The position numbers were made by a program, and so were the translations under genes. This document shows, one piece after another, positions 28,868 to 30,633 of a stretch of 46,346 nt of DNA. How positions within the stretch are numbered: the first letter of the stretch is position 1; each line of letters opens with the position of its first letter. The stretch lies in the NCBI GenBank assembly GCA_017397835.1, contig JAFQHV010000020.1, positions 1-46,346 of the forward strand, written 5' to 3'. The stretch comes from Oscillospiraceae bacterium. Lineage in GTDB: Bacteria > Bacillota > Clostridia > Oscillospirales > Oscillospiraceae. The notes under the pieces were generated by a model that saw only the letters and a list, made by a program, of their open reading frames with translations, did not search any database and was not told where the DNA came from.

Positions 28868-29725
28868 ATGAAAACGGGACTGGTGCTGGAGGGCGGCGCC
28901 CTGCGAACGATTTATTCCAGCGGTGTGTGCGATGGGCTGCTGGCCGGCGGGGTCATGGCCGACTACGTGGTGGGTGTGTCCGCTGGCATTGCCTATGGAG
29001 TGAGTTACATTTCCGGGCAGTCCGGGCGCAATTTGGAGATCGTCACCCGCTTTGCCAGAGATCGGCGGTACATGGGTCTTGGCAACCTGCTTGACCCCAA
29101 AAATCGCAGCTATTTCGGCCTTGACTTCACCTACCGGCAAATTCCGGAAACTCTCATTCCCTTTGACTATGAAGCCTTTGCTGCCTTTCCGGGACAGGTG
29201 GAGGCGGTGGTGACTGAACTGGAAACCGGCAAGGCGCGCTACTGCACCGTGCCCCGGGACAAAGAGGGGAGCAGCCTTGTGCTGCAGGCTACCTGCGCCC
29301 TGCCCTTGATGTTTCCAAGCTATCAGATTGAGGGCGTGGAGTGCGTGGACGGCGGCGTGGCCGACTCCATCCCGTACCGACGTGCCTTTGAACAGGGCTG
29401 CGACCGCGTCATCGTGGTGCTGACCCGACCCTGGGACTATGTAAAAAAGGCGGATCGCAGCCTGCCGCTGGTGCTGCGCAAGTACCGCAAGTGGCCGGAA
29501 TTTTGCAAGACCATGGCGGCTCGGGCCGAACGTTATAATGAAAGCCGCAGACAGCTGTTCGAACTGGAGCGGCGAGGTAAGGTGCTGGTCATCGCGCCGG
29601 AGGATACCCACGGTGTGTCCCGCACGGAACGCAACGTTGAAAAGCTGCGTCTGCTGTGGGCGGACGGTTACCGACAGGCCGCTGACCGGATGGACGAGAT
29701 CCGCACGTTTGTAAGTGGAAATTGA
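28868..29725 (+). CDS. Patatin-like phospholipase family protein
   Basis: A 285-residue serine hydrolase of the patatin fold (E. coli YjjU-like). The oxyanion motif GGALR (9-13), the nucleophile elbow GVSAG (Ser38) and the partner Asp in VDGGVADSIP (about 161) make a complete Ser-Asp dyad. There is no signal peptide, so it acts in the cytoplasm or on the inner membrane face, likely on lipid esters; the natural substrate is unknown. The start at 28868 (MKTGLVLEGG) follows GGCGGTGAGGG. It is monocistronic, between divergent cysK and a terminator. Confidence 0.9.
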   Translation: MKTGLVLEGGALRTIYSSGVCDGLLAGGVMADYVVGVSAGIAYGVSYISGQSGRNLEIVTRFARDRRYMGLGNLLDPKNRSYFGLDFTYRQIPETLIPFDYEAFAAFPGQVEAVVTELETGKARYCTVPRDKEGSSLVLQATCALPLMFPSYQIEGVECVDGGVADSIPYRRAFEQGCDRVIVVLTRPWDYVKKADRSLPLVLRKYRKWPEFCKTMAARAERYNESRRQLFELERRGKVLVIAPEDTHGVSRTERNVEKLRLLWADGYRQAADRMDEIRTFVSGN

Positions 29726-29735
29726 GTGAAAAGTG

Positions 29736-29766
29736 ATCCCCTGCCCACGGAGTGGACAGGGGATTT
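29736..29766 (+). terminator. Terminator of the patatin-like gene
   Basis: ATCCCCTG (29736-29743) pairs with CAGGGGAT (29757-29764), with an inner CCAC/GTGG helix; a short T-rich run (TTTCTTCT) follows. Confidence 0.7.
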
Positions 29767-29792
29767 CTTCTGCGCAAAAACGGTAAAAGCAC

Positions 29793-29821
29793 TTGCATTT
29801 TTCGACTAAAAGCGGTAAACT
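29793..29821 (+). promoter_or_regulatory. Promoter of the S-component-comEC-holA-rnmV operon
   Basis: TTGCAT (29793-29798), 17 bases, TAAACT (29816-29821). It implies a start near 29828 and a leader of about 205 bases. Confidence 0.7.
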
Positions 29822-29827
29822 GAAACG

Positions 29828-30033
29828 GTCAGAGAAACAGGCAGCTTAGGCTTGCGTGTGCTGCACTCTTTTGGGTGCTGAGTGCCGGTGGAACAGGGAC
29901 TGTCCGCCGGACGAATAGCCGTTGGCTTGCAGTGCGCAAACCGGTTCCCACTGCCGCATACCGGAGTATATCCCTCCTCTGTGCGGCTTGCCCAACCACG
30001 TGGGCTGCCCATGGCACAGAAGGAGGATTTTTT
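29828..30033 (+). promoter_or_regulatory. Structured leader with anti-Shine-Dalgarno helix, candidate translational riboswitch
   Basis: No gene is visible here. The RNA holds several strong helices: GCACTC/GAGTGC (29863-29885), a 7-bp CCGG helix with an inner ACAG/CTGT (29885-29910), AGCC/GGCT, and TTGC/GCAA. The key part is CCTCCTCTGTGC (29973-29984), which pairs with GCACAGA and GGAGG (30014-30026, one bulged A), burying the ribosome site of the S-component gene in a 12-bp helix around a nested GCCCA/TGGGC hairpin. The same strand can instead pair upstream: GCCGCA (29953-29958) with TGCGGC (29982-29987), and GGAG (29963) with CTCC (29974). The two folds exclude each other, as in riboswitch expression platforms. 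I find no THF, TPP, FMN, cobalamin or T-box signature. Confidence 0.65.
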
Positions 30034-30633
30034 ATGAACACACCAAACAAAGAAACTCTGCTCCACCGCAGCTACTGGAAGGCGGCGGTGGCCGACCTGT
30101 ACAGTACCCGCAACCTGGTCTTTGCCGCGCTGATGGTGGCTATGGCCCGGGTGCTGGCCCTGATCCCCAGCATCCCCATCGCCCACACCCGACTCAGCTT
30201 TAGTTTTCCTGCACGGGCCATGTGCGCCCTCGTGTGCGGTCCGGTGGCAGGTATGGCATACGGTTTTGTGGAGGATATTTTAGGGTTTATCCTGCAGCCA
30301 ACCGGAGAATTCTTCTTCGGCTATACCGTTTCCACCATGGCGGGCATGCTGGTATACGCCCTGTGCTTTTACCGCCGGCGCGTGACGGTGGTGCGCATCG
30401 TGGCGGCCAACGTGCTGGTCAACGTCTTTGTCAATGCCATGTTGGGTTCGCTGTGGACCATGATGCTTCGCGGCGGCGGGTACTTTGGCTGGTTCGTTCC
30501 CAGCTTGCTGAAAAATCTGGTGACCATCGTGCCCAAGAGCGTGGTGCTCTATTTCTTTTTCCAGGCCATGCTGCCTATCCTGAGCCGCATCGGCGTAGTG
30601 AAAGGCAACCACGATTTGATTCGTCCTTGGTAA
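30034..30633 (+). CDS. ECF transporter S component, folate (FolT) type
   Basis: S components bind a vitamin and share the ECF ATPase module encoded elsewhere. This 199-residue protein has five or six membrane helices and the landmark stretch LSFSFPARAMCALVCGPVAG..FVEDILGFIL followed by GEFFFGYTVSTMAG, which best fits the folate group (FolT); cobalamin- or other vitamin-specific members are less likely but not excluded. The ATG at 30034 follows AAGGAGGATTTTTT; longer in-frame starts would run through the structured leader. The leader's anti-SD helix suggests ligand-controlled translation. comEC follows 29 bases later. Confidence 0.82.
   Translation: MNTPNKETLLHRSYWKAAVADLYSTRNLVFAALMVAMARVLALIPSIPIAHTRLSFSFPARAMCALVCGPVAGMAYGFVEDILGFILQPTGEFFFGYTVSTMAGMLVYALCFYRRRVTVVRIVAANVLVNVFVNAMLGSLWTMMLRGGGYFGWFVPSLLKNLVTIVPKSVVLYFFFQAMLPILSRIGVVKGNHDLIRPW

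Follow-up and report, generated by a model that had tools for sequence, protein, structure and literature searches.

A THF-I Riboswitch Variant with an Extra Junction Hairpin and a Probable Dual Expression Platform Upstream of folT in an Oscillospiraceae Bacterium

The closest described relative of the element discussed here is the tetrahydrofolate riboswitch THF-I (RF01831), for which two ligand sites have been described, one at the pseudoknot (U7, U35 and U42) and one at the three-way junction (U25 and C53), in the cited portions of PMC9881143, PMC6614920 and PMC11477058; the cited portion of the first of these assigns control to the pseudoknot site and folding to the junction site. The THF-II riboswitch (folE motif) has its type of ligand in common with our element but is a two-helix architecture, which the excerpts cited (PMC6800512 and PMC9881143) place upstream of folE in Gram-negative bacteria. 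For the machinery downstream of an aptamer, the precedent is the work of Barrick and Breaker (2007, PMC2258182), in whose cited section terminators that carry the ribosome site in their 3' side are treated as dual platforms.

What, then, is the RNA that precedes folT in this genome, and how might it work? In a preliminary description of the window (the whole stretch of DNA that was analyzed, 46,346 nucleotides), the leader of folT had been read by eye as an undescribed translational riboswitch with no THF core, upstream of a FolT-like ECF S component. The position before FolT holds, as we describe below, but the claim of a new class does not: in a Rfam scan of the whole window, RF01831 is the sole match at gathering level, full-length and with 49.8 bits against a gathering score of 36, although this is low within the THF-I family, whose best members reach 97.5. 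By the test that the description itself had proposed, namely whether Rfam already has a matching class, the element is not new, and the alternative that it had also offered, a very divergent THF element, was the correct one. It was right, too, about the absence of TPP, FMN, cobalamin and T-box elements, since neither these nor other classes give a gathering-level match in the window; the scan likewise gives no THF-II match to the element, and we attribute to chance four weak hits between 29600 and 30200, none of which reaches its gathering score (E from 0.11 to 9.5). A search of the genome found no second THF match besides 29840-29955. On the evidence of the sequence, the leader of folT is a variant of the THF-I riboswitch, a known class, and very probably one that would bind reduced folates and switch folT off when these are plentiful. 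That the leader belongs to a new class with no relation to THF-I had a single argument behind it, the failure of the first inspection to see the core; with RF01831 matched over its full length, and with AGUG, GACGAA, P1 to P4 and the pseudoknot all aligned, we regard that reading as ruled out, its probability being practically nil. The parts of the aptamer are these:

29840..29955, forward strand: THF-I aptamer (RF01831, model positions 1-99 of 99, 49.8 bits)
29840..29844, forward strand: 5' strand of P1, GGCAG, with its partner at 29951-29955 (Rfam alignment and comparative alignment)
29849..29861, forward strand: 5' strand of P2, with its partner at 29929-29942 (one bulged G)
29863..29878, forward strand: extra P2-P3 junction hairpin, GCACUC-UUUU-GGGUGC, not in the Rfam consensus
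29881..29884, forward strand: conserved AGUG (invariant columns), whose U29883 is the counterpart of U25 in the ligand site at the three-way junction (contact residue from the cited part of PMC9881143)
29885..29910, forward strand: P3 stem with loop L3 (ACAGGGACUG, 29893-29902)
29896..29900, forward strand: pseudoknot strand GGGAC, of which GGGA pairs with UCCC 29946-29949 and C29900 with G29944
29911..29915, forward strand: ACGAA, whose C29912 is the counterpart of C53 in the junction site (contact residue from the cited part of PMC9881143)
29917..29927, forward strand: P4 hairpin, AGCC-GUU-GGCU
29943..29950, forward strand: J2/1, the receptor side of the pseudoknot

Set beside THF-I, the element has the same P1 to P4, the same pseudoknot between L3 and J2/1, the AGUG and GACGAA cores, the residues U7, U25, C53 and, if the gap is placed as in the Rfam alignment, U42, a FolT target and, presumably, the same OFF logic by competition with P1; it differs in an extra hairpin in J2/3, in a G41-C79 pair swapped to C-G, in the loss of one L3 base and in a J1/2 that reads CUUA instead of AGUA.

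The comparison rests on 119 THF aptamers, consisting of all 71 matches in the same genus (found in 61 of the 64 genomes searched), 18 family members selected because they were long and the 30 family loci with the best scores. A MAFFT alignment (A1) of 29 of the 34 aptamers that bear the junction hairpin (five near-duplicates were left out) has 100% of cells paired in P1, 97.1% in P2, 97.4% in P3 and 72.2% in P4, and both sides change in 2 of 5, 10 of 13, 7 of 8 and 4 of 4 pairs, respectively. Such sequence comparison supports helices P1 to P3, the hairpin at the junction and the expression platform of three strands described below, and the further helices that the preliminary description had listed in the leader are all present. 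The leader as a whole (29828-30060) folds better than shuffled sequences by a modest excess (z = -2.36, with 2 of 200 shuffles as good); its RNAfold minimum contains neither P1 nor P2, and the pseudoknot and the ligand lie outside that model.

Why had the core escaped the eye? The Rfam alignment places a 17-nt insertion at the P2-P3 junction, within the core motif, and this insertion contains a 16-nt, 6-bp hairpin (29863-29878, with a UUUU loop and one G-U pair); because the hairpin splits the motif, a core that is present, and whose remainder (AGUG, GACGAA) is intact, was overlooked. That is, the claim of a new class is settled, and so is the reason why the element went unrecognized. The J2/3 of the Rfam consensus has three nucleotides and no helix, so the window departs from it, a departure that we regard as peripheral because the RF01831 model still accepts the window above threshold.

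How common is such a hairpin? An insert of hairpin length occurs in 23 of the 71 same-genus matches, with three more aptamers (L033, L040 and L051) having a shorter insert that we left uncounted. It also occurs in 11 of the 18 family matches picked for length and in none of the 25 that could be parsed among the 30 best-scoring family loci, but only the same-genus figure is an unselected rate, since the family sets were picked by length or score. The 34 hairpin-bearing aptamers hold 31 distinct inserts, of which 28 are more stably folded than shuffled versions of themselves at p <= 0.05 (the other three in this first set are not) and 24 have an uninterrupted stem of at least 5 pairs. All six stem pairs change on both sides across the 29 aptamers of A1, with 63.2% of cells pairing, a value that is low in part because short inserts are misaligned there. 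In a class-wide sample, a model derived from the subtype matched 118 of 291 genomes; the insert is found in 13 of the 29 best class loci (the window excluded), spread over eight families, which is not a rate because the search model favors members with the hairpin. Among the 12 distinct class inserts, nine, drawn from six of the eight families, beat their shuffles, and three do not at p <= 0.05. For detection, the hairpin-aware model R1 was no better than that of Rfam: out of 400 family genomes it matched 226 at E <= 1e-5, and the Rfam model matched 290 at E <= 0.001, figures that are not like for like because the cut-offs differ.

The extra hairpin would most likely act as a peripheral stabilizer, making a four-way junction out of the three-way one and leaving U25 and C53 in place. 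The literature searched contains no description of it, and "undescribed" is an uncertain word here because the search lay outside the primary THF-I papers and the Rfam seed. What this locus probably adds to the known picture is a subtype of THF-I marked by its structure, namely the hairpin at the junction, and by a platform that is probably dual. For the class around this genome we propose more tentatively, and at a little under even chances, a large and so far undescribed four-way-junction subtype of THF-I in which a covarying hairpin sits at the ligand junction, the pseudoknot site of the window's clade has been re-wired, and the platforms that the subtype drives are dual, with a terminator U-tract that is also the spacer between Shine-Dalgarno (SD) sequence and start codon. 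The junction hairpin amounts to a natural experiment bearing on which THF site matters: a helix has been inserted at the junction site and the pseudoknot site has been re-paired, which can be held against the roles in folding and control that the cited portion of PMC9881143 gives to the two.

The pseudoknot site itself deserves a closer look. GGGA pairs with UCCC in all 29 rows of A1. Residue numbers were carried over by way of the Rfam alignment and what we take to be the Streptococcus mutans (S. mutans) sequence. By motif matching in the Rfam alignment, the window keeps U7 (U29847), U25 (U29883), U42 (U29901, which depends on gap placement) and C53 (C29912). The position of U35 is a C, as is the Rfam consensus letter, and other neighbors of the pocket differ as well, with CUUA in place of AGUA in J1/2 and one base lacking after U42. 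Six of the 119 aptamers could not be parsed for the pseudoknot; among the other 113, the fifth pair, G41-C79, has become C-G (29900 with 29944) in seven, namely the window and six relatives, and is G-C in the remaining 106, including 13 that the script misparsed and that were therefore read by eye. Alignment A1 scores this pair as seven C-G and 22 unpaired, the latter because MAFFT positions the gap differently, and under its placement the changed base is U42 rather than G41. Both the alignment to the Rfam model and the swap at the partner base favor the placement that gives C29900-G29944, and from the sequences the swap seems to have happened once, as a compensatory change within a single clade.

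Could the changes mean that the ligand preference has shifted, so that the window's clade has a THF-derived switch favoring another folate or pterin? The changes in question (C29900-G29944, U35 to C, the lost base and CUUA) do cluster at the site that the cited portion of PMC9881143 makes the regulatory one, and the pseudoknot swap is common to all seven aptamers; yet the swap is compensatory, U7, U25, C53 and, on the Rfam alignment, U42 are retained, the C at U35 is the Rfam consensus letter, and all six clade relatives have a FolT ortholog, 67-93% identical to the window's, with comEC and holA next in line, the same order as here. We consider a shifted preference quite improbable and retain THF-I with its known kind of ligand.

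The gene under the aptamer is the following:

30034..30633, forward strand: folT, folate ECF transporter S component, 199 aa (TIGR04518, 81.3 bits, cut-off 60)

Its product matches solved folate S components in sequence (PDB 4huq_S and 5d3m_C), the THF-I aptamer lies directly upstream, a position that predicts control of a folate gene, and the genome has one energy-coupling T component over the cut-off. In this genome, which is 96% complete, profile searches gave no match for folE or folK and none over the cut-off for DHPS or folC, and the same searches were positive in 11 to 13 of 14 control genomes. The genome therefore probably imports its folate, and the failure to find synthesis genes fits a tightly controlled importer; with a single THF match in the genome and a probable inability to make folate, one switch would set the folate supply. 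Weak folC matches of 35 and 25 bits (C24) fall within one 499-aa frame, which may be a Mur ligase. A gene swap in four of the clade relatives was considered and dropped, since a frame that had seemed unrelated to FolT over 300 nt proved, in longer stretches, to be FolT with an N-terminal extension. The FolT part of these four is 67-69% identical to the window's; the extension (L125-L128) is about 85-190 residues, an upper bound that depends on the choice of start codon. On L125, the Pfam models for S components align with residues 219-373 and score slightly below their cut-offs.

Between aptamer and gene lies what we read as a three-strand switch:

29953..29960, forward strand: switch strand A, GCCGCAUA, whose first three bases also belong to the 3' strand of P1; it pairs with strand B
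29973..29987, forward strand: switch strand B, CCUCCUCUGUGCGGC, with an anti-SD part (29973-29984) and an anti-sequestor part (29980-29987)
30014..30026, forward strand: switch strand C, GCACAGAAGGAGG, which holds the SD
30027..30033, forward strand: AUUUUUU between SD and start codon, a candidate terminator U-tract

The helix of 12 bp with one bulged A that had been said to bury the ribosome site is exact in its coordinates: CCUCCUCUGUGC (29973-29984) pairs with GCACAGAAGGAGG (30014-30026), and the SD, AGGAGG (30021-30026), sits inside. Both alternative partners proposed for the anti-SD strand, GCCGCA (29953-29958) and GGAG (29963-29966), are present. The competing anti-sequestor is borne out by comparison, whose evidence is far stronger than the modest folding excess of the leader. 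Strand A pairs with 29980-29987 of strand B at 8 of 8 positions in the window, as it does in 7 of 7 members of the window's clade and in 28 of the 34 hairpin-bearing leaders, and pairing of strand A with a downstream strand is complete (8/8) in 69 of 113 distinct leaders as compared with 1.9% of shuffles. The strands themselves differ from group to group (GCCGCAUA with UGUGCGGC, GCUACAUA with UAUGUAGC, GCCAUGGG with UUCAUGGC and GUUAGGAA with UUUUUGAC), so it is the pairing, not the sequence, that is conserved; the covariation check that had been suggested for related leaders thus finds A:B kept across several different sequence pairs. A recognizable SD is present in 32 of the 34 leaders. In each of these, the SD lies within the best duplex that the anti-SD strand can form, and this duplex surpasses shuffles at p <= 0.05 in 26 leaders and at p <= 0.01 in 15, with six missing the former level.

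These pairings exclude one another, P1 against A:B and A:B against B:C, so that a P1 stabilized by ligand would favor B:C, making an OFF switch, a direction that we infer from the anatomy and from the known behavior of THF-I. Without ligand, strand A (the 3' bases of P1 plus GCAUA) would pair with B, leaving the SD free and preventing the downstream hairpin. With THF bound, the pseudoknot would clamp P1, P1 would take up strand A, and strand B would be left to pair with C, burying the SD in a hairpin that is followed by U6. Such a hairpin would block ribosome binding and would probably end transcription too.

Is the switch translational, as first described, or does it also terminate? The helix that sequesters the SD speaks for the first part of that label, which is probably incomplete because a U run of the intrinsic-terminator kind follows directly. 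Among the 20 SD-bearing gene starts called mechanically in the window, that of folT alone has a T run above 3 in its spacer. A run of at least 5 follows the SD in 25 of the 32 hairpin-bearing leaders and, in the neighborhoods of 14 relatives (genes again called mechanically), at 7 of 10 THF-led gene starts and at none of 28 others. The U6 after the ribosome-site hairpin, with such runs found in the controls only at THF-led genes, suggests that the hairpin is probably a transcription terminator as well. It resembles the dual platforms of Barrick and Breaker (2007), in the section cited, in having the ribosome site in its 3' side and U residues thereafter, and differs in the 29 nt between its arms and in that termination is here predicted. 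The same features can be turned around: if this THF-I riboswitch were purely translational, the U run would be a spacer and control would lie in hiding the SD, which is indeed wholly inside the helix, and 29 nt between arms, with an inner hairpin, would be unusual for a terminator, of which a simple scan (loops of 3-8 allowed) reports none at the folT leader. The U runs in the junction-hairpin leaders and at THF-led starts, together with the dual platforms on record (PMC2258182, in the part cited), make us think this somewhat unlikely, and from the sequence pattern we favor a dual platform for termination and translation.

Some observations concern other loci. In the same genus, a HutD-like gene lies downstream of THF-I aptamers that lack the hairpin at L083, L079 and L086 (and probably at L087, L092 and L104), with PF05962 giving 53 bits on a 66-aa piece at L083 and the remaining loci judged by eye. 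HutD belongs to histidine degradation, a pathway able to feed one-carbon units to THF. Three genomes (G427:C94, G429:C2 and G430:C78) each carry a pair of THF riboswitches on a single contig, separated by 2-3 kb. At L110 (G160), a THF riboswitch with the junction hairpin precedes a folC-like gene, of which a piece of 70 aa scores 56 bits with TIGR01499, less than the cut-off for the whole protein; folC is named as a THF-I target in the cited portion of PMC9881143. Within the window, an inverted repeat at 29727-29770 (AUCCCCUGCCC...GGACAGGGGAU, then TTTCTT), seen by eye just after a patatin-like gene, is probably the terminator of that gene, and the simple scan of 29650-30100 lists no terminator, this repeat included. 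At 29793-29821, a weak promoter-like TTGCAT-N17-TAAACT can be made out by eye.
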